Assembly: GCF_002151125.1 (NCBI RefSeq)
Contig: NZ_MDJZ01000017.1
Span: 1-64,000 of the forward strand
Reading direction: 5' to 3'
Origin: Clavibacter michiganensis
GTDB lineage: Bacteria > Actinomycetota > Actinomycetes > Actinomycetales > Microbacteriaceae
Length of the DNA stretch: 64,000 nucleotides
Each line of letters opens with the position of its first letter. The stretch's first letter is position 1. This document shows, in pieces, positions 1,795-45,377 of this stretch. Under the pieces are notes generated by a model. That model was given only the letters and a program-made list of their open reading frames with translations, was not told where the DNA came from and searched no databases. Both the position numbers and the translations under genes were made by a program.

Positions 1795-2384
1795 GCCGGG
1801 GACAGCTCCTTGAGGTCGATGGTGCCGAGGGAGATGGCGCGCACCGTGTCGACGAGGAGCCTGCGCTCCACGACCTTGATGCGCTCGTGCAGGGTGTGCT
1901 CGGTGTCGCCGGGTTCCACGGGCACGCGCTCCTGCGCGAGCACCGGCCCGGTGTCGACCCCGGTGTCGACGACGATGATGGACGCCCCGGAGCTCGTGGC
2001 CCCGGCCGCGATGGCGTCGCGGACGGCGTGGGCTCCCGGGAACTCGGGGAGGTACGCCGGGTGCGTGTTCACGATGCGGGGCGCGAAGGCCTCCACCGCG
2101 CGCGGCGGGAGGAGGCGCATGAAGCCGCTGAGGACCACGAGGTCGGGCTGCCAGCCGGCGATGGCCGCGGCGAGCTCGTCGCCCCAGGCCGCGCGGTCGG
2201 GGAAGCTCGCGAACGGCACGGTGAAGGTGGGGATGCCGCGCTCCTCGGCGAAGGCGAGCCCGTCCGCGTCGCGGTCGGCGCCGACGGCGATCACCCGGGC
2301 GGGGTAGTCCGCGTGCTCGGCCGCCTGCAGGAGGGCGTGGAGGTTGGTCCCGCTGCCGGAGATGAGGACGACCACGTTGAGCAC
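1791..2384 (-). CDS. purN: phosphoribosylglycinamide formyltransferase
   Basis: PurN transfers a formyl group from 10-formyl-THF to GAR, the third step of purine synthesis. The 197-aa product shows the phosphate-binding [10 protein letters not shown] near the N-terminus, the catalytic [12 protein letters not shown] segment (the N-x-H pair) and [10 protein letters not shown] with the catalytic Asp. Two in-frame GTG starts exist, at 2390 and 2384. I prefer 2384: it gives the usual [13 protein letters not shown] start and lies exactly 6 nt after a TAGGCT hexamer. Starting at 2390 would add two residues. Its stop overlaps the purH start by 4 nt. This is the folate-dependent PurN, not the formate-dependent PurT. 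Confidence 0.95.
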
Positions 2385-2390
2385 GGCCAC

Positions 2391-2396
2391 AGCCTA
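2391..2396 (-). promoter_or_regulatory. candidate -10 (TAGGCT) of leaderless purN
   Basis: TAGGCT lies 6 nt upstream of the GTG at 2384. Its first three bases are the TAG stop codon of the upstream DUF6350 gene. No clear -35 is visible. Confidence 0.4.
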
Positions 2397-3674
2397 TCCG
2401 CGTCCCTCGACGCTGCGCCGGACAAGGGGGGCCATGAGCCCGGACACGAACATGCCCGCCACGGAGGCGACGCCGATCTCGAGGAACGCGACCAGGAGGA
2501 TCCACCCGGCAGCCGGACCCACGTCCGCCAACCGGCCGGGGCCCGCCGCGCCTCCGGACAGGACCGCCAGCAGGGCGAGCGCGCCTGCGCCGACGAGGCC
2601 CATGCCGAGACCCGCGATGAGGAACCACGGCCAGCGTCGCGCCTCGGGCTCGGGGATCCGCGCCACCCGCGGCGAGAGCGCGACCGCCGCGACGAAGGAC
2701 ACGACCACGGGGACGAGGATGCCGAGGTAGCCGAGGTCGAACGCCCCCTGCGGCAGGACGCCCAGCACCGGCACCGACGGGATGGGGCCGACGGCCGTGC
2801 CGAGCGGCGAGATGGACGAGCCGGTGCCGAGCGCGAAGCCGGGCCCGATCAGCCAGGACGCCGCCCACATGACCAGGTTCGGCAGGAGCGCGATCTGCGC
2901 CAGCGTGAGCGCGACGCCGCCGACGATCCCCGTCTGCAGCGTCTCGTAGAGGGTGATCACGGTCGCGTACTGCAGGCCCAGCAGCACCGCGACCACGACG
3001 GCGGAGATCGCCACGACGGCGAAGGCCGCGGCGGCTCCCCCGCGGACGGCCGTCCCGGCGACGGAGACCGCGCCGTCCGGCAGGCGGTCGAGCGCATCCC
3101 GCGCGCTCCGGATGGCGCCGGCCGCCCGGCCCGACGACAGGGACGCGCCCCACCGGGCTGCCCGCGCGCGGTCGACGCGGGCGACGCCGCCGATGAGGAG
3201 GCCGAGCGCGAGGACCAGGGTCGGCAGGATCGCGCCCCGCGCGATGGCCGGCGCGATGCCCTCGTGCTGGACCGCGAGCGCGAGGCCGAGGGACAGGAGG
3301 GCCGTCGTGACGACGGCGGAGACCGCTCCGACGCCGGGGTGGTCGGTCTCGACGATGCGGCGTCCGGCGCGGATCCCGAGGAGCAGCGTGAGGAGGGCGA
3401 ACCCCAGGGGCGCGAGCGTGAGCGCGAAGGGCGCGTCGACGGGCGGCAGGCCGAGGGCGGTCGCGAGCGACGGATCCAGCGACGCCGCGAGCGGCACGCC
3501 GTGACCGAGGAGCCAGAGGTCGACGGCCGTGCGTGCGAAGACGCCCCAGTCGACCTGCAGGTCGTACTGACCGGCCCAGAGCGCGGTGAGCGGGACGAGG
3601 GGCAGGGCGACGCCGACCCCCACCACCAGGAGCGCCTCGAGTGCCGCGAACAGGGCGGTTGCGTGTCGGTTCAT
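2394..3674 (-). CDS. DUF6350 polytopic membrane protein (PerM-like)
   Basis: A 426-aa hydrophobic protein with roughly ten or more predicted transmembrane helices, long Ala/Val/Leu/Gly stretches and a charged loop around residues 165-200. I assign it to the actinobacterial DUF6350 family by composition and place: in M. tuberculosis the gene before purN-purH (Rv0955, PerM) is of this kind and has been linked to cell division. No catalytic motif is visible. Start ATG 3674 begins [19 protein letters not shown], placing a membrane segment at the very N-terminus. It has no Shine-Dalgarno sequence but does have a TAGGGT hexamer 9 nt upstream. The family assignment is likely; the function is inference. 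Confidence 0.8.
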
Positions 3675-3683
3675 GCCTCGACG

Positions 3684-3689
3684 ACCCTA
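3684..3689 (-). promoter_or_regulatory. candidate -10 (TAGGGT) of DUF6350 gene
   Basis: TAGGGT sits 9 nt before the ATG at 3674, which lacks a Shine-Dalgarno sequence. This is consistent with a leaderless or near-leaderless transcript. Confidence 0.4.
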
Positions 3690-7085: not shown

Positions 7086-9068
7086 ATGACATGGATCACC
7101 TCGGCCCCTCCCTCCTCCTCTCCCCGACGGCACGACCGCCCACCACGGCGGCCGCGCGCTCCCCGGCTCGTGTCGGCGCTCGTGGGCGTCGGCCTCGCGC
7201 TGGGCTTCGCGGCGAGCGCCGCGCCTCCCGCGCAGGCGCTGAGCGCGGTCTCCCACGGCGTCGGGTACTCCTCGGGGGCGGACGGACGCTGGCTGGGCTC
7301 GTACCGGATGGACGACGGGCGGCTCGGCTTCTGCATCGATGTCGGGCTCGCCGCGCCGCCCGGCCACGCGTACGCGCCTGTCGCGGACGCGGGCACGTCG
7401 CCCGACGACCGCGCGCGGCTCGCCTACATCTCCCGGCGATGGGCCGGATCAGCGGATCCCGACGACGCCGCCGCCGGTCAGCTGGCGACGTGGAGCATCA
7501 CCGGACTGGGAGCGCATGACCTGTCCTGGTACGCGGCGCGGGCCGGCGATCGTGCCGCCGCCGTCGAGTCACGTGCCCGGGAGATGCTGGCCGAGGCCGG
7601 ATCCCGCGCCTCGCGCTCCGCGACCGCGGCCGCGACCGTGGCGCTCGGGGACGACGGGCACGGCACCGTGCGCGTGGACCTGCGCGCCGACCTCGTCGCG
7701 AGCGGGCAGACGGACGTCCCCGCCGGATCGCAGACGGGCACGGTCTCCCTCACCGGCGCCGTGTTCGACGACGGGAGCACGACGGCGCAGGTGGCGAACG
7801 GCACCCCGATGGCGCTGCGGGCGACGGGATCCGCCGCGGCGCTGCATGTGACGGCGAGCGCCGTCTTCACCTCGCTCCCCTACGGCGACGTCCTGGACGC
7901 GGTGGGCGACGGCGGCGCGTCCCAGCGGATGATCCTGGCCCGCCCCGCGGATGCCCGGGCCGAGGCGAGCGCGGACGCGCAGGCCCCGAGCCCGCTCCCC
8001 TTCGCGCCGCGCGTCGTCACCCGCACGTCGCAGTCCGTCGCGGGGATCGGCGACGAGCTCTCGGACGCGCTCAGCGTGTCCGCCGACCACGCGGCGCCCG
8101 CCGACCACGGCAGGCCGGCCACCTCCGACGGCTGGGGGCTGACCCGCCGGGAGGACGGCAGCCTGGTGCCCGTGCCGGTCATCGTCCGCAGCCGGCTGCT
8201 CGGGCCCTTCCCGGAGCAGGTCGGGCCCGAGCGCGACGACGCCCCCGCCGACGCCCCGCAGGTGTGCGAGGTCGCGACGCGCGTCGACCGCGGTCCGGGC
8301 GACTACGCCTCGCCCGCCTGCCGGCTCCCGTCCGGCGGCTTCTACACCTGGGTCGAGTCCATCTCGCCGGACGACACCGCGATCCCGGACGGACGAGCGC
8401 GGGTCCTGCCCTGGCGGTCGACCTTCGGCGCCGCCACCGAGACGTCGCAGGTCCCGCAGCCGCCGCGGATCACGACGACCATCGGGGCCCGGGAGATCAC
8501 GACGGGCGACTGCCAGACCGACACGCTGCACGCGGCGTCGTTCGTCGGGGTCGGCTCCGTGCCCGTGCACGTCCGCCTCGCGGGTCCGTTCCCGACGGCG
8601 CCCGCCGACGGCGAGCCCGTGCTCGTGCCGGACGACGGCGGCGCGGCCGGCCTCGCCTCGGACGTCGTCCTCACCGGCGACGGCGACGTGACCACGCCCT
8701 GCATGCGCGTCTCCTCGCCCGGCTGGTACGTCGCCGTGCTCGACAGCCCGGGCCGACCCGCCGGGGATGCGGACGGGGCAGCCATCGCGCCGTTCGCCGA
8801 TCACGTGGCGCACGCCGGCGAGACGTTCCACGCGGCCCCTCCGCCGGCCACCGACGTCCCCGCACCGCCCGCGCACGCCCAGCTCGCGATGACGGGCGGG
8901 GCACCCGGGATCGACGTGCCGGGTCCCGGTGGGACCGAGCGGGTGGGCGCGCAGCAGCTCGCATGCGCAGCGGCGACGATCGGCGCACTCGGAGCCGTGG
9001 GAGTCGGCATCCGCCGCACCGGCCGTCGCCGCGGGATCCCTAGAGCTTCTCGATGGGCGCGATCTTGA
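7086..9068 (+). CDS. secreted surface protein with LAMTG sortase signal
   Basis: The 660-aa product has an Arg-rich N-terminus, a hydrophobic h-region (SALVGVGLALGFAA) and an AQA-type cleavage site near residues 50-53, so it is a Sec or Tat substrate. The mature N-terminus (LGFCIDVGLA, ATWSITG) resembles the thioester-type adhesion domains of pilin-like surface proteins; this is a weak similarity. Beta-rich repeats follow, with paired Cys and SGGFYTWVES / SPGWYVAVLDS segments. LAMTG at 600-604, then a hydrophobic helix and an Arg-rich tail, is a cell-wall sorting signal of the LAXTG type used by class E sortases. No sortase gene is in the window. Its 3' end overlaps pcrA tail-to-tail by 29 bp. 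Substrate or adhesion role unknown. Confidence 0.85.
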   Translation: MTWITSAPPSSSPRRHDRPPRRPRAPRLVSALVGVGLALGFAASAAPPAQALSAVSHGVGYSSGADGRWLGSYRMDDGRLGFCIDVGLAAPPGHAYAPVADAGTSPDDRARLAYISRRWAGSADPDDAAAGQLATWSITGLGAHDLSWYAARAGDRAAAVESRAREMLAEAGSRASRSATAAATVALGDDGHGTVRVDLRADLVASGQTDVPAGSQTGTVSLTGAVFDDGSTTAQVANGTPMALRATGSAAALHVTASAVFTSLPYGDVLDAVGDGGASQRMILARPADARAEASADAQAPSPLPFAPRVVTRTSQSVAGIGDELSDALSVSADHAAPADHGRPATSDGWGLTRREDGSLVPVPVIVRSRLLGPFPEQVGPERDDAPADAPQVCEVATRVDRGPGDYASPACRLPSGGFYTWVESISPDDTAIPDGRARVLPWRSTFGAATETSQVPQPPRITTTIGAREITTGDCQTDTLHAASFVGVGSVPVHVRLAGPFPTAPADGEPVLVPDDGGAAGLASDVVLTGDGDVTTPCMRVSSPGWYVAVLDSPGRPAGDADGAAIAPFADHVAHAGETFHAAPPPATDVPAPPAHAQLAMTGGAPGIDVPGPGGTERVGAQQLACAAATIGALGAVGVGIRRTGRRRGIPRASRWARS

Positions 9069-11490
9069 TGAGCAGCCGCTTGCGACCCGCCGGGCCGTCG
9101 AACTGGACCTCGGCGATGCGCTTGCGTCCCTCGCCCGTGACGCCGGTCACCCGGCCGTCGCCGAAGTCCGTGTGGCGGATGCGGTCGCCGAAGGCGAGCT
9201 CGAGGTCGCCGTTGTCGCGCACCTGCCCGGTGACCGTGTTGGCCCACTGGGTCTTGGGGCGAGGAGGCGGCGGCAGGGCCGGGTCCTCGAATCCGCTCGA
9301 CGAGCGGGATCGGCCCCCGTAGCCGCCTCCCTCACGCCGGGCGTTCAGGGCGCGGGGTTGCGTGCCGCCGCGCGAGGTGGCCATGCCCGGCGACTGCTTC
9401 CAGTCGATGAGCTCAGCCGGGATCTCCTGCAGGTACCGGCTCGGCATGGCGACGTTGACCTCGCCGAACTGCGCCCGCGTCATGGCGAGCGAGATGAAGA
9501 GGCGGCGACGGGCGCGCGTGATGCCCACGTAGAACAGGCGCCGCTCCTCCGCCGGTCCGCCGGGCTCGTTCGCGGACATGCGGTGCGGCAGCAGGTCCTC
9601 CTCCACGCCCGTGAGGAACACCGAGTCGTACTCGAGGCCCTTCGCCGTGTGGAGGGTCATGAGGGACACGGTGCCGCTCGAGTCGTCGAGCTCGTCCGCC
9701 GCGGCGACGAGCGAGACCTCCGTGAGGAAGTCCACGAGCTGGCCCTCGGGGTTGTTGCGCGAGAACTCCTTCGTCACGGCGACGAGCTCCTCGACGTTCT
9801 CCGCGCGGGCCTCGTCCTGCGCGTCCTTGCTCGCCCGCAGCGCCTGCACGAGGCCGCTCTTCTCCAGCAGCGTGGTCACCAGGTCGCCGACGGAGGTCCG
9901 TCCTTCCGGCCGCTCCGGATCCAGGAGCAGCGCCACCTCGTCGAGCATCCGCGAGAGCGCGAGGATCGCCTGCGTCACCTTGGGTCCGAGGCCCAGCTCG
10001 GATGCGCGGCGCATGGCCTCGCGGAAGGTCACGCCGTGCGACTCCGCGAAGTTCGCGAGGGCGGTCTCCGTGGCCGGGCCGATGCCCCGCTTCGGGGTGT
10101 TGAGGATGCGGCGCAGCGCCAGCACGTCCGCGGGGTTCGCGACGGCGATCAGGTACGCCATGGCGTCCTTGATCTCCGCCCGCTCGTAGAACTTCGTGCC
10201 GCCCATGATGCGGTACGGCACGGCCGAGCGGATCAGGATCTCCTCGAGCGCCCGGGTCTGGGCGTTCGTCCGGTAGAACACCGCGATCTCGGAGTACGCG
10301 GTGCCCTCCTCGTGCAGCTTCTGGATCTCGTCGGCGACGAACTGCGCCTCGTCGTGCCCCGAGTACCCCGTGAAGCCGACGATCTTGTCGCCGTCGCCGA
10401 TGGAGGTCCACAGCTTCTTGTCCTTGCGGTCGAAGTTGTTCGAGATGACGGCGTTGGCGGCGGTGAGGATGTTCTGCGTCGACCGGTAGTTCTGCTCGAG
10501 GAGCACGACCCTCGACTGCGGGAAGTCGCGCTCGAACTCGGTGATGTTGCGGATGTCGGCACCGCGGAAGGCGTAGATGGACTGGTCGCTGTCGCCCACC
10601 ACGGTGAGCGACGCCCCGTCGATCCCGCCCATCCCGTTCGTGGACATGCGCGTGTCGACGGGCACGTCCTCCGGCGCCACCGCGCGCGTCAGCTCGCGGA
10701 TGAGGGAGTACTGGGCGTGGTTCGTGTCCTGGTACTCGTCCACCAGCACGTGCCGGAACCGCCGCTGGTAGAGCGCCGCGACCTTCGGGAACGCGCGGAA
10801 GAGGTAGACGGTCTGCCCGATGAGGTCGTCGAAGTCGAAGGCGTTGGCGGCCGCCAGCGAGCGCGTGTACTGCCGGAAGATCTCCACGAACATGGCCTCG
10901 GCCGGATCGTTGAAGTTGGCCGTCCGCGCGAACGTGTCCGCGTCCGACAGCTCGTTCTTGAGCTTCGAGATGCGGCCCGACACGGAGGAGACCGTGAAGC
11001 CGAGCGTGTCCGCGTCGAGCTGCTTGATGATCCGCTTGATGAGCACGCGGCTGTCGGCGGAGTCGTAGATGGTGAAGTTCTGCGTGAAGCCGAAGGCCTC
11101 CGCCTCCCGGCGCAGGATGCGGACGCACGCGGAGTGGAAGGTCGAGATCCACATGCCCTCGGACGCCTGGCCGAGCAGCGACTCGACGCGCTCGCGCATC
11201 TCGGCCGCGGCCTTGTTCGTGAAGGTGATGGCGAGGATCTGGCTCGGCCACGCCTCCCGGGACTCGATGAGGCTCGCGATGCGGTGGGTGAGCACCCGCG
11301 TCTTGCCGGAACCGGCACCGGCGACGATGAGGAGGGCGGGACCCCGGTACACGACGGCCTCGCGCTGCTCCGGGTTGAGGCCCTCCAGCAGCGGATCCTC
11401 GGGGGCTCCCGACCCTCCATCGGCACCCGACCGGCCGTCGAGGATGATCGGGGTGCTGGAGGGGCGAAGGGCGGCGGGGTCAGCACTCAT
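9040..11490 (-). CDS. pcrA: ATP-dependent DNA helicase PcrA/UvrD (SF1A)
   Basis: A 3'-5' superfamily 1A helicase for nucleotide-excision repair, replication restart and removal of recombination or transcription intermediates. At 816 aa it has all signature motifs in order: Q-motif LNPEQREAV, Walker A GAGSGKT, motif II VDEYQDTNHAQY, motif III GDSDQSIYAFRGAD, motif IV LEQNYRST, motif V TLHTAKGLEYDSVFL and motif VI YVGITRARRRL. A Tudor-like C-terminus (TGVTGEGRKRIAEVQF) is the module that in PcrA contacts RNA polymerase. ATG 11490 has no Shine-Dalgarno but a TAGGAT 10 nt upstream. Monocistronic; its last bases overlap the convergent surface-protein gene. Confidence 0.97.
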   Translation of the reverse strand: MSADPAALRPSSTPIILDGRSGADGGSGAPEDPLLEGLNPEQREAVVYRGPALLIVAGAGSGKTRVLTHRIASLIESREAWPSQILAITFTNKAAAEMRERVESLLGQASEGMWISTFHSACVRILRREAEAFGFTQNFTIYDSADSRVLIKRIIKQLDADTLGFTVSSVSGRISKLKNELSDADTFARTANFNDPAEAMFVEIFRQYTRSLAAANAFDFDDLIGQTVYLFRAFPKVAALYQRRFRHVLVDEYQDTNHAQYSLIRELTRAVAPEDVPVDTRMSTNGMGGIDGASLTVVGDSDQSIYAFRGADIRNITEFERDFPQSRVVLLEQNYRSTQNILTAANAVISNNFDRKDKKLWTSIGDGDKIVGFTGYSGHDEAQFVADEIQKLHEEGTAYSEIAVFYRTNAQTRALEEILIRSAVPYRIMGGTKFYERAEIKDAMAYLIAVANPADVLALRRILNTPKRGIGPATETALANFAESHGVTFREAMRRASELGLGPKVTQAILALSRMLDEVALLLDPERPEGRTSVGDLVTTLLEKSGLVQALRASKDAQDEARAENVEELVAVTKEFSRNNPEGQLVDFLTEVSLVAAADELDDSSGTVSLMTLHTAKGLEYDSVFLTGVEEDLLPHRMSANEPGGPAEERRLFYVGITRARRRLFISLAMTRAQFGEVNVAMPSRYLQEIPAELIDWKQSPGMATSRGGTQPRALNARREGGGYGGRSRSSSGFEDPALPPPPRPKTQWANTVTGQVRDNGDLELAFGDRIRHTDFGDGRVTGVTGEGRKRIAEVQFDGPAGRKRLLIKIAPIEKL

Positions 11491-11500: not shown

Positions 11501-11506
11501 ATCCTA
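11501..11506 (-). promoter_or_regulatory. candidate -10 (TAGGAT) of pcrA
   Basis: TAGGAT ends 10 nt before the pcrA ATG, giving a leaderless or very short-leader mRNA. No Shine-Dalgarno sequence is present. Confidence 0.4.
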
Positions 11507-11626: not shown

Positions 11627-12691
11627 TCAGCGCACGACGGCCGCCGCGCGCCCCCCGACGAGCGCGACCGCGAGATCCGGGTGGTCGGCGAAGACGCCGT
11701 CGACGCCCGCGTCGAGGAGCCGGCCCCAGTGCGCGCCGTGGTCGCCGTGCGCCGACTTCGGCCCGGGCCCGCGGAGGGGCCGGGGCAGGAACGCGTTCTC
11801 GGGGCGCAGCGTCCAGGTGAAGACGGTCAGGCCGACGCGGTGCGCGCGCTCGACGAGGTCGGAGACCGGCGCGGGTGAGGATGCCCCCGCGCCGTCGGGT
11901 GCGCGGAACCCCACGGCCGGGCAGATCCGCTCGACGCCCACGCTGATTCCGTCCACCTCCTCGGCGAGCGCCGCGAGACCCCCGTCGGTCAGCTGCTCGT
12001 CGAACGTGACCGCGGCGTCGCCGTGCCGGGCGACCTCGTCCACCGCAGCGCCGCGTCCCTCGAGGAGGTACACCAGACGCGCCTCCACGCCGTGCGCCCG
12101 GACGCGCAGGAGCGCATCCCGCTCGAAGGACTCGATCGTGAGGCGCGATGCGTCATCCGCCCAGCCGTGCGCGCGGAGGTCGCGGGCGAACAGCTCGTCG
12201 AGCGGCAGGCCGAGCGCGGCGAAGTGCGTGGCGTGCTTGATCTCCGCGACCATGCCGAGCGGACGTCCGTGGCGCGCCGACTCCTGGTCGATGATCCGCA
12301 GCAGGTCGGGCAGCGAGAGCACGGTCTCCTCGTCGTCGTGGGTCGCGCTGTCCGGCCGCACCGCGGGGATCCGCTCCCGGCAGCGGAGCGTGCGGATCTC
12401 GGCCCACGTCATGTCCTCCGTGAACCAGCCGCTCCGCTCGACGCCGTCGACGAGCCGCGTGGTCCGCCGGTCGGCGAACTCCGGCCTGTCGGCCACGTCG
12501 GTCGTGCCGGCGAGCTCGTTCTCGTGCCGGATGACGAGCACGCCGTCCGAGGAGGCGACGAGGTCGGGTTCGACGGCGTCCGCGCCCTGCGCGAAGCCGA
12601 GCCGCACGGCGGCGGCGGAGTGCTCGGGGCGGTAGCCGCTGGCTCCGCGGTGGGCGATGACGAGGGGGCGGGGGCGAGGGGCGTGGTCCAC
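11627..12691 (-). CDS. glycerophosphodiester phosphodiesterase (GDPD)
   Basis: A TIM-barrel enzyme that hydrolyses glycerophosphodiesters to glycerol-3-phosphate and an alcohol. The 354-aa protein has the GDPD signature IAHRGASGYRPEHS at 12-25 (catalytic His) and the metal-binding EPDLVASSDGVLVIRHE, in which the second catalytic His follows. The C-terminal barrel strand carries VFTWTLRPENAFLP. No signal peptide is present, although the pattern (GYRPEHS rather than GxPENT) is nearer to periplasmic GlpQ forms; the protein is probably cytosolic. GTG start at 12691 with TAGCGT 7 nt upstream and no Shine-Dalgarno sequence. Single gene. Confidence 0.93.
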   Translation of the reverse strand: MDHAPRPRPLVIAHRGASGYRPEHSAAAVRLGFAQGADAVEPDLVASSDGVLVIRHENELAGTTDVADRPEFADRRTTRLVDGVERSGWFTEDMTWAEIRTLRCRERIPAVRPDSATHDDEETVLSLPDLLRIIDQESARHGRPLGMVAEIKHATHFAALGLPLDELFARDLRAHGWADDASRLTIESFERDALLRVRAHGVEARLVYLLEGRGAAVDEVARHGDAAVTFDEQLTDGGLAALAEEVDGISVGVERICPAVGFRAPDGAGASSPAPVSDLVERAHRVGLTVFTWTLRPENAFLPRPLRGPGPKSAHGDHGAHWGRLLDAGVDGVFADHPDLAVALVGGRAAAVVR

Positions 12692-12698: not shown

Positions 12699-12704
12699 AC
12701 GCTA
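12699..12704 (-). promoter_or_regulatory. candidate -10 (TAGCGT) of leaderless GDPD gene
   Basis: TAGCGT lies 7 nt upstream of the GTG start at 12691. Confidence 0.45.
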
Positions 12705-15321: not shown

Positions 15322-15325
<4 letters not shown>

Positions 15326-15864
15326 GTGGTGGCCTCCGTGGTGGTGGTCGGGTCGATGGGTCGGGCTTCCGCGTCGTCGCGGTCGTCGGCGGCGGGCACC
15401 TTGCGGCGCGGCGCCTCGAGCTCCGCGATCGTCTCCCGCACCCGGCGGGCGATGCGCGCCTCCACGACGAAGGAGAGGAACGGCACGACGCCGCCCGCGG
15501 CGATGAGGATGAAGCGCGTGAACGACCAGCGCATCTTCTGCCAGAGCAGGAAGTCGCTGATGAGGTAGACCACGTAGATGTTGCCGTGGACGATCTGGAT
15601 CAGGAGGCTCAGGTTCGTGCCCGTGAGCGTGTCCGCCGGCGACAGCGCGAGGAAGCCGGACGGGCCGTTGAGCTCCAGCTCGTAGCCGGCGCCGGCCAGG
15701 TACTGCAGCGACCCGTCGACGAACTGGAAGCCCGGCAGGTACTTGATGCCCATCTCCACGACGAGGAGGAGGAGGAACGCGCCGGTGATGAACGCCATGA
15801 CGCGGTAGAAGCCGAGGACCCTCCGGATCTGCGGGATGTCGGAGCGCTTGAGTCCGTAGGCCAT
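15322..15864 (-). CDS. DUF3817 integral membrane protein
   Basis: A 180-aa membrane protein with three or four hydrophobic segments (residues about 20-42, 75-95, 105-125) and a charged C-terminal tail ending in a Thr/Glu/Ala run. [21 protein letters not shown] and [18 protein letters not shown] match the actinobacterial DUF3817 family, whose function is unknown. It sits immediately before guaA with overlapping stop and start. ATG 15864 has a TAGGAT hexamer 6 nt upstream that includes the surf1 stop codon. Confidence 0.85.
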
Positions 15865-15870: not shown

Positions 15871-15876
15871 ATCCTA
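15871..15876 (-). promoter_or_regulatory. candidate -10 (TAGGAT) for DUF3817-guaA
   Basis: TAGGAT is 6 nt from the ATG at 15864, and its TAG is the stop codon of the upstream surf1 gene (15874-15876). It would give guaA a promoter independent of surf1. Confidence 0.45.
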
Positions 15877-21394: not shown

Positions 21395-22966
<1,572 letters not shown>

Positions 22967-29005: not shown

Positions 29006-29959
29006 TCAGATGCCCTCGACGACCGCCGGATCCCTCTGCACGGGCACCCGGGTCGAGATGCGGCGGCGCGACACCCGGAGCATGTCGACCGTGAGCAGGA
29101 CGAGCGCCGCCCACACGATCGCGAAACCCGCCCAGCGCTCGGGCGGCATGGCCTCGTGCATCACGAAGACGCCGAATCCGAATTGCAGGAGCGGCGCCAG
29201 GTACTGCGTGAGCCCGATCACCGAGAGGGGCAGGCGCCCGGCGGCGAACCCGAAGAGGAGGAGCGGCCCGGCGGTGACGACGCCGGTGCTGACCAGCAGG
29301 AGCGTGTGCCCGAGCGAGACCGTGCCGATGGTGAGCCCGGCGCCCGCGCCCGTGATCACGAGCATGGTCGTGGCGGCGGGGACGAGCCACGCGGTCTCGA
29401 GCGCCAGGCCCGAGAGCGCGTCCGCTCCGCCGCTCACGCGCTTCTTCACGAGCCCGTAGAGCCCGAAGGACCCGGCGAGCGCGAGCGACACCCAGGGCAG
29501 CTGCCCGTAGCCGATCGCGATGACCGCCACGGCCACCGCGGACAGGCCGACGGCCGCCGACTGCAGCGGACGGAGGCCCTCGCGCAGGAGGATCACGCCG
29601 AGCAGCACCGTGACGATCGGGTTGATGAAGTAGCCGAGCGCCGTCTCGACCACGTGGCCGGAGAGCGTGCCGTAGACGTAGACGGTCCAGTTGACGAGGA
29701 TCAGGTGGCCGGCGAGCCCGAGACCGAGCAGGATCCGCGGCCGCCGGACGATGGCGACCACGCGCGACCAGCGCCTCGCGGCCGTGATGACGAGGGCGCA
29801 GACGACGAGCGAGAAGAGGATCCGCCAGCCGACGATCTCGAACGCGCCCGCCGGCACGAGGAGCAGGAAGAAGACGGGAAGGACGCCCCACAGCCCGTAC
29901 GCGCCGACCGCGGCGATGAGGCCGGTGCGGGTCGAGGACTCGGGGGCGGGGCGCGTCAC
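29006..29959 (-). CDS. rarD: RarD/EamA-family permease
   Basis: A 317-aa drug/metabolite transporter superfamily protein with ten predicted helices in two EamA repeats. RarD-type features are the N-terminal GLIAAVGAYGLWGVLPVFF, LVNWTVYVYGTLSGHVVETALGYFINP around residues 88-115 and GLTQYLAPLLQF in the second half. Substrate unknown. The GTG start at 29959 has TAGCCT 6 nt upstream and no Shine-Dalgarno sequence. It lies upstream of the binding-protein gene on the same strand but is separated by 178 nt holding that gene's own promoter. Confidence 0.92.
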   Translation of the reverse strand: MTRPAPESSTRTGLIAAVGAYGLWGVLPVFFLLLVPAGAFEIVGWRILFSLVVCALVITAARRWSRVVAIVRRPRILLGLGLAGHLILVNWTVYVYGTLSGHVVETALGYFINPIVTVLLGVILLREGLRPLQSAAVGLSAVAVAVIAIGYGQLPWVSLALAGSFGLYGLVKKRVSGGADALSGLALETAWLVPAATTMLVITGAGAGLTIGTVSLGHTLLLVSTGVVTAGPLLLFGFAAGRLPLSVIGLTQYLAPLLQFGFGVFVMHEAMPPERWAGFAIVWAALVLLTVDMLRVSRRRISTRVPVQRDPAVVEGI

Positions 29960-29965: not shown

Positions 29966-29971
29966 AGGCTA
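29966..29971 (-). promoter_or_regulatory. candidate -10 (TAGCCT) of leaderless rarD
   Basis: TAGCCT ends 6 nt before the GTG at 29959. Confidence 0.45.
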
Positions 29972-30529: not shown

Positions 30530-30541
30530 CGCGAGTGCCAA
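30515..30541. promoter_or_regulatory. CIRCE operator overlapping the groES -35
   Basis: CTTGCACTC-N9-GAGTGCCAA, with spacer gcgcaacgc: two mismatches in the first arm and one in the second against the consensus. Binding by HrcA would occlude the -35 box. Confidence 0.85.
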
Positions 30542-30561: not shown

Positions 30562-30567
30562 TACGGT
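30562..30567 (+). promoter_or_regulatory. candidate -10 (TACGGT) of leaderless methyltransferase gene
   Basis: TACGGT ends 6 nt before the ATG at 30574. The promoter would be back to back with the CIRCE-controlled groES promoter. Confidence 0.35.
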
Positions 30568-30573: not shown

Positions 30574-31776
30574 ATGGATCAGACCGACCTCCGCGAGGTG
30601 CTCTCGCTCGAGGGGCTCCGCCTGCTCGACTCCCTCCCCGCGCCCGCGCCGGGGGACGACATGGTGCGGATGGTGAGCGCGCTGCGCGGCGAGGGACACT
30701 CCCCCGCGCTCGTCTCCGCCGTCCTCACGCAGTCGCGCCTGCGCGCGAAGGCCAGGGGCAAGTTCGGCGACTTCGCGGAGCGCATGCTCTTCACCGAGGC
30801 CGGGCTCGAGCAGGCGACGCGCCTCCCTGTCGCCGCGCAGCACGCGGGGCGCTTCCAGCAGGCGGGCGTCGCGCACGTGGCCGACCTCGGCTGCGGGATC
30901 GGCGGGGACGCGATGGCCATGGCGGCCATCGGGATCCGCGTCACGGCCGTCGAGCGCGACGAGGTGACCGCGGCGGTCGCCGGCTGGAACCTGGCGCCGT
31001 TCCCCGAGGCCGAGGTCGAGCAGGGCACGGCCGAGGCGTTCGACGCCGGGCGCGTCGACGGCGTGTACCTCGACCCGGCCAGGCGCACGGACGGGCACTC
31101 CTCCACGCGCCGCATCTCGGATCCGGACGCGTACTCCCCCACCCTCTCCGCCGCGTTCGAGCTGGCCGCCGGACGGGCCGCGGGCATCAAGCTCGGGCCG
31201 GGCCTCGACCGCGACCTCATCCCCGCGGAGGCGGAGGCGCAGTGGGTGTCGGTCGACGGGCAGGCCGTCGAGATGGGCCTGTGGTTCGGGCCGACGCGGC
31301 GCGACGGCGTGCGGCGGGCGGCGCTCGTGATCGGCGGCGGGACGCAGGCGGAGCTCACGGCGGCGGCCGACAGCGAGGACGCCGAGCTCGGCGAGCTGGG
31401 CGCGCACCTCTACGAGCCGGACGGCGCCGTGATCCGCGCCCGCCTCATCGGCGACCTCGCGCGCTCGCTCGACGGGCGGATGGTCGGCGAGGGCATCGCG
31501 TGGATCACGTCCGAGCGCGAGCAGGCGACGCCGTTCGCGCGCGGCTTCCGGGTGCGGGAGGTGCTGCCGCTCGACGAGCAGCGGCTCAAGCGCGAGCTGC
31601 GGGCGCGCGGGATCGGGACGCTGGAGATCAAGAAGCGCGGGGTCGACGTGGACCCGGCCAGGCTGCGCACGCGGCTGCAGCTGAAGGGCGACGGCTCGGC
31701 GACGCTCATCGCGACGCGGGTCGGCGGGCGGCGCGTCGCGATCCTCGCGGACCGGCACGGGGTCGCCGCGGGCTGA
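30574..31776 (+). CDS. class I SAM-dependent methyltransferase with THUMP-like C-terminus
   Basis: A 400-aa protein with a central SAM-binding Rossmann domain: motif I VADLGCGIGGDAMAMAA, then VTAVERDE as the acidic post-motif, and YLDPARRT in place of the usual motif IV. The C-terminal portion (RTRLQLKGDGSATLIATR) resembles the THUMP-like domain that accompanies this actinobacterial family. An RNA or nucleotide substrate is plausible but not demonstrated; close relatives are generally annotated only as methyltransferases. ATG 30574 is preferred over an upstream ATG at 30535, which would lie within the CIRCE element. Confidence 0.88.
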   Translation: MDQTDLREVLSLEGLRLLDSLPAPAPGDDMVRMVSALRGEGHSPALVSAVLTQSRLRAKARGKFGDFAERMLFTEAGLEQATRLPVAAQHAGRFQQAGVAHVADLGCGIGGDAMAMAAIGIRVTAVERDEVTAAVAGWNLAPFPEAEVEQGTAEAFDAGRVDGVYLDPARRTDGHSSTRRISDPDAYSPTLSAAFELAAGRAAGIKLGPGLDRDLIPAEAEAQWVSVDGQAVEMGLWFGPTRRDGVRRAALVIGGGTQAELTAAADSEDAELGELGAHLYEPDGAVIRARLIGDLARSLDGRMVGEGIAWITSEREQATPFARGFRVREVLPLDEQRLKRELRARGIGTLEIKKRGVDVDPARLRTRLQLKGDGSATLIATRVGGRRVAILADRHGVAAG

Positions 31777-32384: not shown

Positions 32385-34000
<1,616 letters not shown>

Positions 34001-34004
<4 letters not shown>

Positions 34005-34618
34005 GAGGTGACCCGCTTGGGGCCCGCGGAGAGGGTGACGTCGGGCGAGCGGAGGTAGAGCGCCTCGTCGGCCGCGAAGGGCAGGTCGAGCTCGTCCATC
34101 CGGCGGGCGACCTGCGCGAGGGCTGCCGCGCGCACCCCGGCGGCGTCGACGCGGTGGTCGGCGGAGGGCACGTCGTCGGGCTTGCTCAAGCCGGGGCCCG
34201 CGGTGCGCTCGGCGACGCCGCCGTCGACGGGGGCGCGGTAGACGGACCAGTACAGCTCGCGGCGGCGCGCGTCGGTGACGACCACGAGGGATCCGGTGCC
34301 GCCCGACGCGTAGTGGTCGTGGGCGACGGCGTCGTGGCTGACCACGGGGATCACGCGCACGTCGAGCCCGGTCGCGAGGACGCGGGCCGCGGCGATGCCG
34401 ACGCGGAGGCCGGTGAAGGGACCGGGGCCCATGCCCGCGACGACGGCGCGGACGTCGCACCGGTCGATGCCGGACGCCGTGAGGCACTCGTCGAGCAGCG
34501 TGCCGATGACCTCGGCGTGCCGCATGGTGTCGGCCTCCTGGCATTCAGCGAGCACGCGGCCGTCGGGGTCGATGACGGCGACGCCCGTGCCGGCGGAGGT
34601 GTCGATCGCGAGGAGCAC
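34001..34618 (-). CDS. tsaB: t6A complex dimerisation subunit TsaB
   Basis: TsaB is the inactive ASKHA-fold paralogue that pairs with TsaD in t6A synthesis. The 205-aa protein has [15 protein letters not shown] at the start and [20 protein letters not shown] near 66-85, the typical TsaB signature. GTG 34618 is preceded by TAGACT 6 nt upstream and no Shine-Dalgarno sequence, so the gene may start a new leaderless transcript although it lies only 9 nt after alr-tsaE. Its stop overlaps the rimI-tsaD start. Confidence 0.95.
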
Positions 34619-34624: not shown

Positions 34625-34630
34625 AGTCTA
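34625..34630 (-). promoter_or_regulatory. candidate -10 (TAGACT) of leaderless tsaB
   Basis: TAGACT begins with the TAG stop codon of alr-tsaE (34628-34630) and ends 6 nt before the tsaB GTG. Confidence 0.4.
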
Positions 34631-37827: not shown

Positions 37828-39678
37828 TCACTCGACCGTGACGGACTTCGCGAGGTTGCGCGGCTGGTCGACGTCGAGTCCCTTGGCCGCGGCGAGCTCC
37901 ATCGCGAAGATCTGCAGCGGCGTGACGGCGAGGAGCGGCTCGAACAGCGGCGCGGCGAGCGGGATCGGGATGACCTCGTCGGCGTGCGGCAGCACGAACG
38001 CGTCCCCCTGCTCGGCGATCGCGATGACGCGGGCGCCGCGCGCGCGGATCTCCTCGATGTTCGAGATGACCTTCTTGTGCAGCGCGAGCTGGTGCGTCGG
38101 GCTCGGCACCACGACGAACACGGGCTGGCCCGGCTCGATGAGGGCGATGGGCCCGTGCTTCAGCTCGCCGGCCGCGAAGCCCTCGGCGTGGATGTACGCG
38201 AGCTCCTTGAGCTTCAGCGCGCCCTCGAGCGCGACCGGGAAGCCGACGTTCCGCCCGAGGAAGAGGACGGCGCGCGTGTCCGCCATCCACTTCGCGAGCT
38301 GGCTGATCTTCTCGCCCTGCTCCACGACGGTGGCGAGCTTCTCCGGGATGGCGAGGAGCTCCTCCGTGTTCGCCACGATCTCGTCGGCCGACAGCGTGCC
38401 GCGGATCCGCGCCAGGTGCAGCCCGAAGAGGTACAGCGCCGCCACCTGCGCGACGAACGCCTTCGTGGACGCCACGGCGACCTCGGGGCCGGCGTGCGTG
38501 TAGACGACGGCCTCCGACTCGCGGGGGATGGTGGCGCCCTGCGTGTTGCAGATCGACAGCACCCGGGCGCCGGCCTCGCGGGCGAACCGCACGGCGAGCA
38601 GCGTGTCCATGGTCTCGCCGGACTGGCTGATGGAGATCACGAGCGTCGTCGCGTCGAGCACCGGGTCGCGGTAGCGGAACTCGTGCGCGAGCTCGACCTC
38701 GACGGGCACGCGCGCCCACTTCTCGATGGCGTACTTGCCGAGGATCCCGGAGTACGCGGCGGTGCCGCACGCGACGATGACGATGCGGGAGATGTCCGCG
38801 AGGTCGGCCTCGCCGATCGCGTCGAGGTCGGGCAGCACCACGACGCCGTCGACGATGCGGCCGCGGAGGGTGTTCGCGACGGCATCCGGGCCCTCGCTGA
38901 TCTCCTTCGCCATGAAGCTCGACCAGCCGCCCTTCTCGGATGCGGAGGCGTCCCAGGCGATCTCGAACTCGTGCGTCTCGACGGGCGCGCCGTGGAAGTC
39001 GGTGACGGTGACGGAGTCCGGGCGGATGGCGACCATCTGGTCCTGCCCGATGGCGACGGCGCGGCGCGTGAACTCCACGAACGCGGCGACGTCGGATCCG
39101 AGGAAGTTCTCGCCCTCGCCGAGCCCGATGACGAGCGGCGAGTTGCGGCGGGCGCCGACCACGAGGCCGGGCTGGTCGCGGTGCACCGCGAGGAGCGTGA
39201 ACGCCCCCTCCAGCCGGCTGACCGTGTTGCGGAACGCCTGCTCGAGGTCGTGCGTGATGCCGTACTCGCGCCCGAGCAGCTGCGCGGCGACCTCGGTGTC
39301 CGTGTCGCTGTGGAACTCGTAGCCGTCCGCGAGGAGGTCGTCCTTGAGCTCCGCGAAGTTCTCGATGATCCCGTTGTGGATGAGGGCGAGCTTGCCGTCG
39401 TCGCCCAGGTGCGGGTGCGCGTTGCGGTCGGTGGGGCCGCCGTGCGTGGCCCAGCGTGTGTGGCCGATGCCGGTGGATCCGTTGGGCAGCGGCGACGCCT
39501 CCAGGTCCTCCAGGAGGCGGTCGAGCTTGCCCGCGCGCTTGCGGACGCCCAGCGTCCCGTCCGCGTCGAGCACGGCCACGCCCGCGGAGTCGTATCCGCG
39601 GTACTCCAGCCTCCGCAGCCCTCCGAGGAGGACCTCGAGGCTCCTGGCCTCACCGACGTAACCCACGATTCCGCACAT
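37828..39678 (-). CDS. glmS: glucosamine-6-phosphate synthase (isomerising)
   Basis: GlmS makes glucosamine-6-P from fructose-6-P and glutamine, the first step to UDP-GlcNAc. The 616-aa protein starts MCGIVGYVG, so Cys2 becomes the N-terminal nucleophile of the class II glutaminase domain; HTRWATHG and NGIIENF follow. Two SIS sugar-isomerase domains fill the C-terminal half ([34 protein letters not shown]) and the sequence ends [12 protein letters not shown] 39678 is fixed by the need for Cys2. TAAACT lies 8 nt upstream and there is no Shine-Dalgarno. No glmS ribozyme is expected or seen. Confidence 0.97.
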
Positions 39679-39686: not shown

Positions 39687-39692
39687 AGTTTA
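39687..39692 (-). promoter_or_regulatory. candidate -10 (TAAACT) of leaderless glmS
   Basis: TAAACT ends 8 nt before the glmS ATG. It lies 81 nt from the divergent coaA -10. Confidence 0.45.
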
Positions 39693-39772: not shown

Positions 39773-39778
39773 TAGGAT
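39773..39778 (+). promoter_or_regulatory. candidate -10 (TAGGAT) of leaderless coaA
   Basis: TAGGAT ends 9 nt before the coaA ATG, which has no Shine-Dalgarno sequence. Confidence 0.45.
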
Positions 39779-39787: not shown

Positions 39788-40747
39788 ATGCCAGACACCG
39801 CGACGGGATCCCCGACGAGCCACGCCCACGTCTCCCCCTTCGTGGAGATCGCCCGTGCCGACTGGGCGGCCCTCGCCCCCGCCACGCACCTCCCGCTCCG
39901 GGAGACCGAGCTCATCCAGCTGCGCGGGATCGGCGACCGGCTCGACATGCGCGAGGTCGAGGACGTCTACCTGCCGCTCAGCCGCCTGCTGAACCTCTAC
40001 GTCACGGGCACGAAGAAGCTGCACCGCGACACGAGCGCGTTCCTCGGCGAGCGGGCCAAGAGCACGCCGTTCGTCATCGGCGTGGCCGGATCCGTGGCGG
40101 TCGGCAAGTCCACCGTCGCCCGCCTGCTCCGCGAGATGCTGGCGCGCTGGGACGACACCCCGCGCGTCGAGCTCGTGACCACCGACGGCTTCCTGCACCC
40201 GAACGCGGAGCTCGAGCGCCGCGGCCTCATGGAGCGGAAGGGCTTCCCGGAGTCGTACGACCGGCGGGCCCTGCTGCGGTTCGTCACGCAGGTCAAGAGC
40301 GGCGTGCCCGAGGTGCGCGCGCCGTTCTACTCGCACCTCGCCTACGACATCGTGCCGGGCGCCGAGGTCGTCGTCCGCCAGCCGGACGTGCTGATCATCG
40401 AGGGCCTCAACGTGCTGCAGCCGGCGGCGTCCGGCGCGAAGCTCGCCGTGAGCGACCTCTTCGACTTCTCGATCTACGTGGACGCGCGCACCCACGACAT
40501 CGCGCAGTGGTACGAGGAGCGCTTCCTCAGCCTCCAGCGCGGCGCGTTCAGCAACCCGCGCTCGTACTTCCACCGGTACGCGGAGCTCAGCCCGGCCGAG
40601 GCCGTGGAGCGCGCGCGGCGGATCTGGTCGACCATCAACGAGCCGAACCTCGAGCAGAACATCCGCCCCACCCGCTCGCGCGCGACCCTCGTGCTGCGGA
40701 AGGACGCCGACCACTCGGTCGCGAACGTCCTGCTGCGCAAGCTCTGA
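39788..40747 (+). CDS. coaA: type I pantothenate kinase
   Basis: CoaA phosphorylates pantothenate with ATP, the rate-limiting step of CoA synthesis. The 319-aa protein has the P-loop GSVAVGKS at 101-108, [36 protein letters not shown] and the C-terminal [21 protein letters not shown], all typical of the bacterial type I enzyme. It is the only plus-strand gene between 31.8 and 54.8 kb, set between divergent glmS and convergent glmM. Confidence 0.97.
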
Positions 40748-43266: not shown

Positions 43267-43295
43267 AGAGTACGCGATCCCGGCCCGTCAGGCAA
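43267..43295 (-). promoter_or_regulatory. rplM-rpsI promoter
   Basis: Minus strand: -35 TTGCCT (43290-43295), 17-nt spacer, -10 TACTCT (43267-43272). It closely resembles the infA promoter, including GGGAT in the spacer. It overlaps the last codons of truA. Confidence 0.65.
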
Positions 43296-44277
43296 TCCCG
43301 GGCGTGTCGGCCAGCCGGGCGAGGTCGCGCGCGGCCACCTCGGCGCCCTCGGACACCGGATCCACCTCGTGCGCGCCGCGCCGTGCCCGGGTGATCTCGT
43401 TCCGCGCCGCGAGCTCCTCGTCCGGCGGGTAGCCGACGCGCTCGAGCACGAGGCCCCGCGCGGGCATCACGGTGAACTCGCTCGTCCGCTCCCGCAGCTC
43501 CAGCAGCTGGCGCAGCCGGGCGACGCCCACCCTGCCGGCGGCGGCCGCGACGCACGCGCCGACGAGCGCACGCACCATGCTGTGGCAGAAGGCGTCCGCC
43601 CGCACGACCGCCTCGAGCGCGCCGTCGGCCGCCCGCGTCCACGTCAGCACCTGCAGGGTGCGGATGGTGGACGCGCCCTCACGGGGCTTGCAGTAGGCCG
43701 CGAAGTCGTGGAGGCCGAGGAGCGCGTCAGCCGCCTCCTGCAGCACGCGCGGGTCCAGCGCCGCCGGGACCTCGACCGTGCGGTGCCGCTGGAGCGGGTC
43801 GCGGGGGCCGGAGGCGTCGGAGATCCGGTAGCGGTACGCCCGCCAGGTCGCGGAGAAGCGCGCGTCGAAGCCCGCGGGCGCGGGCGCGCAGGCGAGCACG
43901 ACGACGTCGGAGCGCGCGCCGAGCACGCCGTTCAGCCGGCGCGCGAGGGCGGCGGCGGCGCGCTCCGCGGACGGGACGTGCGGCGGCCGACCCGCGTCCG
44001 CGTCGGCCGCACGGCCCCGCGGCGCCCGGTCGAGGGAGGCGATCTGCGCGTCCGCGAGGTCGAGGTGGGCGACCTGGCCGGTCGCGTGGACGCCCGCGTC
44101 GGTGCGGCCGGCGACCACGAGCGTCGGCGCGGGAGGCGTCCGGGCGAGCAGCTGCGCGAGCGCGTCCTCGAGGACGCCCTGCACGGTGCGGAGACCCGGC
44201 TGCTTGGCCCAGCCGGCGAATCCCGTGCCGTCGTACGCGACGTCGAGGCGGACGCGCGCGCCGCCGTCCTCCGTCAT
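43288..44277 (-). CDS. truA: tRNA pseudouridine(38-40) synthase
   Basis: TruA isomerises uridines 38-40 in the anticodon arm. The 329-aa protein has [18 protein letters not shown], the catalytic Asp60 in [11 protein letters not shown], and [11 protein letters not shown] near residue 238. It is longer than E. coli TruA (270 aa) through a charged insertion around 82-110 and a C-terminal tail of about 30 residues. ATG 44277 overlaps the stop of the GNAT gene as ATGA. Confidence 0.95.
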
Positions 44278-45365
44278 CGGGCGGCGGATCCCCGCGGCCG
44301 GGTCGTCCCGACCTCCCGCTCGTGCACGGCCGTGCGCGTGGCCTGCGTGAACCCGACGTGCTCGTACAGGTCGAGCGCGCCCGTGGGGCTGTCGTAGTCG
44401 ACGTCGAGGACCGCGCGCTGGAGGCCCTCGGCGCGGAAGCCCGCGAACGCCGCCGACAGCAGCGCCTGGGCGAGCCGGCGGCCGCGGAACTCGCGGCGCA
44501 CGCCGACGAGGCCGATGTACGCGGACGAGTAGCCGGCGGCTTCCCAGTGGTCCGGGTACACCTCCGCCAGCGCGAAGCCGGCGACGACCGCGTCCTCGCC
44601 GTCACCGGTCACCGCGATGACCGACAGGTCGCCGCGCGCGGTCGGCAGCGACAGGAACGCCTCCCAGCGCTCGACGCTGATGGGCTCGGATCCCCAGTGA
44701 TCCCGGAACACCTCGTTCTTGGCCTGGCGCGTGCGCTCCCACCACTCGCGGGAGACCGGGATCAGCCGCAGGCCCTCGGGGGACGGGACCTCGGGGAGGT
44801 CGGCTGCGAGGTCACGGTGCATCTCGACGAAGTAGCGGCCGATGCCGAACCCCCGCGACGCGAGGAGCGCCGCGGCGCCCGCGTCCTCCGCCCGGGCCTC
44901 GGTCGACAGGCGCGTCGGGACGGGCTCCTCGACGTGCGCGGCGGGCTGGGCGACCGCGAGCTTCTGCGTCGCCCGGGCGATCTGCCAGTCGAGCAGGCGT
45001 CCGCCGATGCCCGTGCGCCGGAGGTCGGGTCGGACGGCGCCGGAGACGTCCGCGCGCACGACGGCCTCGTCGTCGGGCTTGACGATCGCGTGGCCCTCCG
45101 CGGCGAGGCGGCCGTCGGCGTCCACGGCCACGATGCCGTCGCGGGCGACGTCCACGTAGGAGAACCCGAGCGCCATGGCGATCTCCTCACGGGAGGCGCG
45201 GTACTCGGGGTGGTCGGCGTCCGCGACCGCGCTCTGCAGCTCCACGAGCGCATCGACGTCGTCGAGCGACATGGCGCGCCACGTGATGCCGTCGGGGCCC
45301 TCGGGGAGCGGGATCGCGGTGGTGGAGGAGGCGTCGTCCGGCATGGTCGTGCTGCTGTCGGTCAT
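44274..45365 (-). CDS. tandem-GNAT acetyltransferase
   Basis: A 363-aa protein with two GNAT modules. The first (about 20-150) has AVRPDLRRTGIGGRLLDWQ as its acetyl-CoA segment; the second (about 195-350) has VRREFRGRRLAQALLSAAF and YEHVGFTQ near the end. The layout recalls mycothiol synthase MshD, but the sequence is not enough to assign it, so no substrate is given. ATG 45365 is preferred to the upstream ATG at 45395 because TACCCT lies exactly 6 nt before it. Translationally coupled to truA. Confidence 0.88.
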   Translation of the reverse strand: MTDSSTTMPDDASSTTAIPLPEGPDGITWRAMSLDDVDALVELQSAVADADHPEYRASREEIAMALGFSYVDVARDGIVAVDADGRLAAEGHAIVKPDDEAVVRADVSGAVRPDLRRTGIGGRLLDWQIARATQKLAVAQPAAHVEEPVPTRLSTEARAEDAGAAALLASRGFGIGRYFVEMHRDLAADLPEVPSPEGLRLIPVSREWWERTRQAKNEVFRDHWGSEPISVERWEAFLSLPTARGDLSVIAVTGDGEDAVVAGFALAEVYPDHWEAAGYSSAYIGLVGVRREFRGRRLAQALLSAAFAGFRAEGLQRAVLDVDYDSPTGALDLYEHVGFTQATRTAVHEREVGTTRPRGSAAR

Positions 45366-45371
45366 CCGTCC

Positions 45372-45377
45372 AGGGTA
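45372..45377 (-). promoter_or_regulatory. candidate -10 (TACCCT) of leaderless GNAT-truA
   Basis: TACCCT ends 6 nt before the ATG at 45365. Confidence 0.4.

Follow-up and report, generated by a model that had tools for sequence, protein, structure and literature searches.

Predicted leaderless genes with a TANNNT hexamer close before the start codon in a genomic stretch of Clavibacter michiganensis

Twelve genes in a 64,000-nucleotide stretch of Clavibacter michiganensis DNA (positions 1 to 64,000 of contig NZ_MDJZ01000017.1, assembly GCF_002151125.1; the whole stretch is hereafter called the window) are preceded by a TANNNT hexamer 6 to 10 nt before the start codon. The window has a GC content of 72%, and the genome comprises 3.02 Mb in 18 contigs. 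According to our analysis of sequence patterns, the hexamer is very probably a -10 promoter element, at a distance that would let transcription begin with the start codon's first base. A preliminary description of the window had proposed leaderless transcripts for all twelve genes. We find that this reading holds up for the nine with 6-8 nt between hexamer and start codon, and that the other three (pcrA, DUF6350 and coaA, at 9-10 nt) more likely have a 3-nt leader.

A hexamer at fixed distance from the start codon

The number of nucleotides between TANNNT and the start codon, here termed the gap, was tabulated for 1155 genes called in 1.263 Mb of the genome, window included (~42% of the genome). 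Genes were called by our own coding-potential script, in which the choice of start is independent of the hexamer. The preliminary description had named an enrichment at 6-7 nt as the test on which its proposal would stand or fall, and the proposal passes it strongly. The hexamer stands at gaps 6, 7, 8, 9 and 10 in 137, 50, 15, 14 and 6 genes, respectively, while control gaps (0-4 and 12-25) hold a mean of 5.0 genes. The excess over background amounts to 177 genes (15%) at gaps 6-7 and to a small surplus of 20 at gaps 8-10 (35/1155 genes, 15 expected). The first two samples of 400 kb agree with each other, with gap 6 in 43 and gap 7 in 12 of 350 genes in the first and in 40 and 17 of 354 genes in the second (jointly 83 and 29 of 704); a third, covering a further 400 kb, gave 47 and 20 of 388 genes. 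No peak at gaps 6-7 was seen in these data before out-of-frame ATG or GTG codons, nor any peak before TTG, CTG, ATT or ACG starts, the 70 TTG starts showing the hexamer at gap 6 in no case and at gap 7 in one. Over the whole genome, TANNNTN6ATG has 299 matches vs 41 for the reversed pattern, and the ratio of the two lies between 4.0 and 12.5 in 17/17 genomes of the genus. The peak at gaps 6-7 is also found in four other genomes (G006, G024, G037 and G047). Leaderless transcription would be the best reading of this pattern for ~15-17% of the genes.

Within the window, the hexamers were present before all twelve genes at the positions originally claimed, and the gap is indeed exactly 6 nt in seven of them (purN, DUF3817, guaB3, rarD, the methyltransferase, tsaB and GNAT). 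The remaining gaps are 7 (GDPD, glycerophosphodiester phosphodiesterase), 8 (glmS), 9 (DUF6350 and coaA) and 10 nt (pcrA). That such spacing exceeds chance was borne out: a gap-6 hexamer precedes an in-frame ATG or GTG in 7 of the 63 window genes, the genome background predicting ~0.27 (Poisson 1.8e-8). A shuffle test that ignores gene context is only suggestive, TANNNTN6RTG having 7 matches in the window, with a shuffle mean of 3.28 and 5/100 shuffles reaching 7. Pfam matches are compatible with the names given to the twelve genes, which are listed here with their predicted -10 boxes:

1791..2384, minus strand: purN gene (Formyl_trans_N), start GTG at 2384, not 2390
2391..2396, minus strand: purN -10 box TAGGCT, gap 6 to GTG 2382-2384; its TAG is the DUF6350 stop (2394-2396)
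2394..3674, minus strand: DUF6350 gene
3684..3689, minus strand: DUF6350 -10 box TAGGGT, gap 9 to ATG 3674; purine at -3
9040..11490, minus strand: pcrA/uvrD helicase gene
11501..11506, minus strand: pcrA -10 box TAGGAT, gap 10 to ATG 11490; predicted 3-nt leader GAC
11627..12691, minus strand: GDPD gene
12699..12704, minus strand: GDPD -10 box TAGCGT, gap 7 to GTG 12691
15322..15864, minus strand: DUF3817 gene
15871..15876, minus strand: DUF3817 -10 box TAGGAT, gap 6; its TAG is the SURF1 stop (15874-15876)
19019..20137, minus strand: guaB3 gene (IMPDH family), start GTG at 20137, not 20143
20144..20149, minus strand: guaB3 -10 box TAGGCT, gap 6 to GTG 20135-20137
29006..29959, minus strand: rarD/EamA-type transporter gene (Pfam EamA)
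29966..29971, minus strand: rarD/EamA -10 box TAGCCT, gap 6 to GTG 29959
30562..30567, plus strand: methyltransferase -10 box TACGGT, gap 6 to ATG 30574
30574..31776, plus strand: methyltransferase gene (Thump_like)
34001..34618, minus strand: tsaB gene (matches Pfam TsaD)
34625..34630, minus strand: tsaB -10 box TAGACT, gap 6 to GTG 34618
37828..39678, minus strand: glmS gene, start fixed by MCGIVG
39687..39692, minus strand: glmS -10 box TAAACT, gap 8 to ATG 39676-39678
39773..39778, plus strand: coaA -10 box TAGGAT, gap 9 to ATG 39788; purine at -3
39788..40747, plus strand: coaA gene (Pfam PRK family)
44274..45365, minus strand: GNAT acetyltransferase gene, start at 45365, not 45395
45372..45377, minus strand: GNAT -10 box TACCCT, gap 6 to ATG 45365

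The genes with a hexamer at gap 6 or 7 (120 of the 767 genes compared) are also set apart by their lack of Shine-Dalgarno (SD) sites. SD 4-mers precede 324/622 of the other genes vs 10/120 of the hexamer genes, and SD 5-mers 160/622 and 0/120, respectively. Before internal ATG or GTG codons (n=9143), 4-mers were counted 1071 times and 5-mers 349 times, and the 4-mers at hexamer genes are no commoner than this baseline. Strong SD sites had been reported for other window genes, and guaB and the khtT-like gene (18393-18926) do show 5-mers; the proposed coexistence of two initiation modes thus stands. A divergent upstream neighbor was found for 62/117 hexamer genes vs 166/596 others.

Orthologues of the twelve genes were compared in seven genomes of the same genus and seven others (six from the same family and one from a different family in the order). 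Most orthologues are preceded by the hexamer, with altered middle letters and flanks outside the genus. In the seven non-genus genomes it was found at 49/63 orthologues, or 55/63 with glmS taken at its true start, as the 0/6 for glmS in the first count stemmed from a caller start at 39579 and became 6/6 after anchoring. For the other window genes the same genomes gave 6/116; control gaps of 13-17 gave 0/63 for the twelve genes and 3/116 for the others. The 6/116 are accounted for by 43288-44277 (PseudoU_synth_1) with three orthologues, 6161-6982 (MPAB_Lcp_cat) with two and guaB with one. None of these three genes has a hexamer here; the non-genus orthologues of 6161-6982 and 43288-44277 carry TANNNT at gap 6-8 in 2/2 and 3/4 cases, respectively, suggesting a change of initiation mode from genus to genus.

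The conservation of glmS was followed further. By GlmS, the closest named relatives among the best 80 of 592 matches are Microbacteriaceae (Rathayibacter at 78%, Cryobacterium, Microbacterium and Frigoribacterium). These best 80 of 592 matches in a scan of named genomes also supplied the loci, which were found in part by a peptide pattern in which Pro precedes Met; this could favor CC before ATG, though not the hexamer. Of 79 named actinobacterial loci, 75 carry the hexamer at gap 6-8 (gap 6 in 8, gap 7 in 65, gap 8 in 2). Among class genomes holding the glmS start motif it was found in 59/69, all at gap 6-8 with 4-12 allowed (gap 6 in 14, 7 in 38, 8 in 7). Within the phylum, 76/396 genomes have the glmS pattern, 396 not being a denominator of start-motif holders. 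Start motifs of the glmS type without the hexamer occur at four loci (L235, L251, L255 and L262) and in ten genomes (G494, G495, G514, G515, G527, G528, G530, G542, G544 and G554); at L251 and L262 (Streptomyces) the stretch ACAGGGGTT stands before the ATG in its place. In other classes (families f31 and f66) the TANNNT of the start motif lies mostly at gap 9 and not at 6-8, which is perhaps a lineage-specific spacing.

The hexamer likely settles the start codons of purN, guaB3, GNAT and glmS. The starts that had been chosen with its help are corroborated outside the genus: in both purN orthologues there the GTG at gap 6 is the only candidate kept, and guaB3 has a GTG at gap 6 in 7/7 (within the genus, both candidate GTGs are retained in both genes). 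For GNAT, a gap-6 hexamer before the start at 45365 recurs in 8/8 orthologues found. A glmS start at 39948, at the head of the long frame, was rejected: the additional N-terminal part is encoded antisense to the start of coaA and to the intergenic gap, it is a separate piece in several genomes of the genus, and GlmS begins with MCGIVG. A start at this motif makes Cys2 the N-terminal catalytic residue.

Two of the genes have conspicuous surroundings. Upstream of guaB3 lie opposed long frames (20130-21350, minus strand, and 20302-21456, plus strand) without a Pfam match. Between the Cpn10/groES gene (30132-30428, minus strand) and the divergent methyltransferase gene lie two CIRCE-like inverted repeats (30469-30493 and 30516-30540), each with one mismatch to the consensus used; allowing up to 3 mismatches, a scan with this consensus found 2 where 0.5 would be expected. 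A distance of 21 nt separates the end of the second repeat from the methyltransferase -10 box downstream.

A number of observations weigh against the leaderless interpretation. The transcription starts are predicted from sequence and not from RNA 5' ends, and the gene calls rest on a simple home-made caller. No -35 element was found among the 120 hexamer genes: the best match to TTGACA at spacings of 15-20 was no better than in shifted controls, and TTG occurred in at most 2/120 per spacing. Outside the genus, the hexamer is absent from orthologues of the methyltransferase (3/7), coaA (2/6), tsaB (1/6), rarD (1/6) and DUF3817 (1/7), and because several orthologues lack it, the initiation mode may change between genera. 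By a crude control, 4/59 relatives (G022, G030, G032 and G056) show no excess over the reversed pattern. Purines should be avoided directly before the start codon since transcription would have to begin on the start codon itself. Position -1 of gap-7 sites holds a purine in 24% of 50 cases (22% of 36 in four other genomes), and the baseline in other genes, 197/622 (32%), is little above this. For gap 8, purines make up 13% of the bases at -2 (15 sites) and 12% in the four other genomes (17 sites), vs 265/622 in other genes, with purines at -1 in 40% in the own genome and 12% in the four. Purine depletion thus backs the leaderless reading weakly and does not amount to firm support.

Two general alternatives need to be weighed. 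That the hexamers are disguised SD sites serving conventional translation is suggested by the AGGA or AGGG within TAGGAT or TAGGGT at pcrA, DUF3817, coaA and DUF6350, at about normal SD spacing, and by an SD-like 4-mer inside 22/120 hexamers. We regard it as hardly credible and reject SD mimicry, since a match requires just T, A and the final T, the middle three letters carry little information and mix C and G, SD sites are otherwise rare before hexamer genes, and orthologues of the same genes carry TAAACT, TACCCT, TAGACT or TATCGT, the SD-like letters not being kept outside the genus. It is also very unlikely that TANNNT is a real promoter element whose mRNAs are leadered or derive from other starts, with incidental spacing. 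The predictive nature of the starts leaves room for this, and purN, DUF3817 and tsaB lie so close behind same-strand genes that upstream promoters could read them; an incidental promoter, however, would not sit 6-7 nt before in-frame ATG or GTG codons alone.

Wider spacing at pcrA, DUF6350 and coaA

With gaps of 9-10 nt, these three genes fall outside the strictly leaderless spacing of 6-8 nt. In pcrA the wide gap is conserved: the hexamer was found in 32/35 genomes, with gap 8 in 2, 9 in 14 and 10 in 16, and the gap is 9 or 10 throughout the genus, in the six other genomes of the family and in G037. Extending the comparison to 20 more genomes of the order gave 17 with the hexamer ahead of the ATG (gap 8 in 2, 9 in 9, 10 in 6), never at gap 6 or 7, and three without it. 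The base at -3 is a purine in 23/25 pcrA cases, the own genus being counted once, vs 276/622 other genes of the own genome; the 25 cases come from related genomes, some sharing a genus, and are not independent trials. Because this purine sits ~7-8 nt after the hexamer, a 3-nt pcrA leader is predicted. DUF6350 has gap 9-10 in 10/10 orthologues, coaA has gap 8-9 within the genus and 7-9, or no hexamer, outside it, and both resemble pcrA within the genus. Most likely the transcripts of all three genes would carry a 3-nt leader, conserved in the case of pcrA.

The alternative, that they are strictly leaderless with an unusually long distance of 9-10 nt between -10 element and start point, is possible but doubtful. 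Distances up to 9 nt in Streptomyces lividans (PMC8079986) and 11 nt in Corynebacterium glutamicum (PMC3890552) appear in the published maps. The frequency of the -3 purine in pcrA speaks against it, as does the statement in the S. lividans map that 88.7% of spacers measure 5-7 nt (PMC8079986).

Stop codons as probable parts of -10 boxes

At purN, DUF3817 and tsaB, the TA of the -10 box belongs to the TAG stop codon of the upstream gene. The hexamer and the gap of 6 nt reported for these genes proved correct, and the leaderless call needed a control of its own for a TA supplied by a stop. In the first sample the sharing was a post hoc observation, noticed after spikes at stop-to-start distances of 9 and 10 nt, where TAG was found in 12/16 pairs with the T in place in 11/12 (control 6/38). 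In the later 400 kb, a TA-type stop occurs in 4/6 pairs at 9-10 nt, and the needed T in 3/4 TA stops vs 5/43 at other distances (Fisher 0.013). All own data taken together give TA stops in 16/22 pairs at 9-10 nt vs 94/476 elsewhere (3e-7), with the needed T in 14/16 vs 13/94 (1e-8). Fourteen of the 87 hexamers found before same-strand genes coincide at their first base with the upstream stop; every other hexamer-to-stop offset from -40 to 60 accounts for at most 3. In the four other genomes the T follows 3/4 TA stops at 9-10 nt (control 9/48).

The junction at tsaB recurs beyond the genus. By blastp, the TsaE stop is the TA of the tsaB hexamer in 7/26 non-genus genomes from seven genera, as TAG in G018, G019, G063 and G045 and as TAA in G023, G037 and G067. 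In G064 the T of the TsaE stop is the last T of the hexamer, and G044 was not counted, its TAG ending a 123-codon frame without TsaE similarity. The same shift of register, to the stop's T as last T, is seen at DUF3817 (4 genomes) and purN (1), and was not seen in the own-genome sample or the four other genomes. Of 20 genomes inspected at this junction, 12 carry a hexamer at gap 6-7 upstream of tsaB, which in five of these follows a long frame ending only in TGA; of the 8 without the hexamer, 7 have a TGA-ended long frame near the start and one shows none. Within the genus TAG is kept at all three junctions, which we rejected as evidence for sharing, most window-gene stops being conserved in 7/7 there anyway. 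In the window, Pfam fusions flank tsaB on both sides, namely alanine racemase with TsaE (34628-36307) and a GNAT domain with TsaD (32385-34004).

We consider it improbable that the operon-internal TAG is a stop only and the TANNNT match a chance product helped by its TA. In favor of such an accident, the stop gives TA free, so that a single T completes the match, and the pattern was at first noticed after the fact. Its retention within the genus, where nearly all stops are conserved, proves nothing, and the single TAG at 9-10 nt in G006 lacks the T. In non-genus genomes the overlap at DUF3817 and purN is lost or moves to another register, and 19/26 genomes show no sharing at tsaB in the original register, among them the five with the hexamer behind a TGA-ended frame. 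Against chance stand the T after TA stops at 9-10 nt, in the pooled data and in the later sample alone, the seven non-genus genomes in which the TsaE TAG or TAA itself begins the tsaB hexamer, and the TGA-ended frames in 7 of the 8 genomes without one. A stop codon would be the cheapest source of TA in a GC-rich genome.

Proposed mechanism and relation to known leaderless genes

We posit that TANNNT acts as the -10 element of a housekeeping-type promoter, from which RNA polymerase would begin transcription at a purine lying 7-8 nt, or up to 9, beyond the hexamer and supplied by the ATG or GTG itself. The mRNA would begin with AUG or GUG, and 70S ribosomes presumably initiate on it without SD pairing. 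What we observe directly are position, spacing, start-codon class, SD absence, genomic frequency and conservation; the site where transcription starts and initiation by 70S ribosomes are what we infer from these. Promoters at gap 6-8 would yield leaderless mRNAs in nine of the twelve genes, and at pcrA, DUF6350 and coaA a promoter of the same kind would start at the purine 3 nt before the ATG. At purN, DUF3817 and tsaB the stop TAG would supply the TA, an operon-internal leaderless promoter needing one further T, and these genes may be read both from the operon mRNA, with the start codon 9 nt after the stop, and from a leaderless mRNA of their own.

Whether the gap is a selected, gene-specific setting, combined with operon-internal promoters built from upstream stops, is a proposal to which we give even chances. 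Most genes would then be set to 6-7 nt, glmS mostly to 7 across the class and pcrA to 8-10 across the order, where, owing to the 3-nt leader, the AUG would no longer be at the 5' end, which may lower translation. An upstream TAG or TAA would serve as the TA of TANNNT, or the stop's T as its last T, and stop-codon choice in these GC-rich genomes would partly reflect promoter selection.

That leaderless genes are established in actinobacteria, as the preliminary description stated, is supported by the literature. Zheng et al. (2011; PMC3160421) described, for ~20% of genes, a TANNNT whose first T lies ~12 bp upstream of the start codon, such TA-led genes occurring in 86/89 actinobacterial genomes alongside SD-led ones. 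The general phenomenon is known for the phylum, and the twelve genes are new predicted members: eight are at gap 6-7, with the first T ~12 bp upstream, and they share the use of ATG or GTG only, the absence of SD sites and conserved orthologues. The words Microbacteriaceae, Clavibacter and Leifsonia are absent from the main text of that study, and stop-codon sharing or gene-specific spacing was not found in its sections checked. In mycobacteria, TANNNT without a -35 motif and 26% leaderless transcripts (Cortes 2013; PMC3898074), leaderless transcripts with ATG or GTG at the 5' end (Shell 2015; PMC4633059), and 24% leaderless transcripts with leader lengths correlating between orthologues (Martini 2019; PMC6448022) have been reported. 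Leaderless transcripts were measured there and are predicted from sequence here; the sections checked of these three studies mention no stop-codon -10 box. The S. lividans map places TAnnnT at a mean of 6.3 nt from the start point (PMC8079986), and 17% and 33% leaderless transcripts, starting with ATG or GTG, are given for S. lividans and C. glutamicum (PMC8079986; PMC3890552), whose maps show a weak -35 motif unlike our data. The phenomenon has been reviewed (PMC9031893). Overlap of a stop codon with the SD site of the next gene shapes stop-codon use and spacer length (PMC2784483), a shared signal that is translational, whereas here it would be a promoter -10 box.

In the open-licence literature, we found no promoter/stop-codon sharing in leaderless genes, no transcript map by title for Microbacteriaceae and leaderless, and, by title among the matches listed, no actinobacterial glmS described as leaderless. 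Neither the stop-codon -10 boxes nor the pcrA 3-nt leader has an earlier description that we found there, and these are the parts worth a test at the bench.

In Bacillus-type bacteria glmS is led by a self-cleaving ribozyme. Here it would have no leader at all, and its control must therefore lie elsewhere. For the Microbacteriaceae, spacing alone would predict the mode of initiation. If the pcrA leader is real, it is a naturally occurring, conserved case in which the effect of a few nucleotides before the AUG can be tested. If the stop-codon promoters are real, the identity of a stop codon carries regulatory information, and a change from TAG to TGA would leave the upstream protein unaltered yet take away the promoter of the downstream gene.

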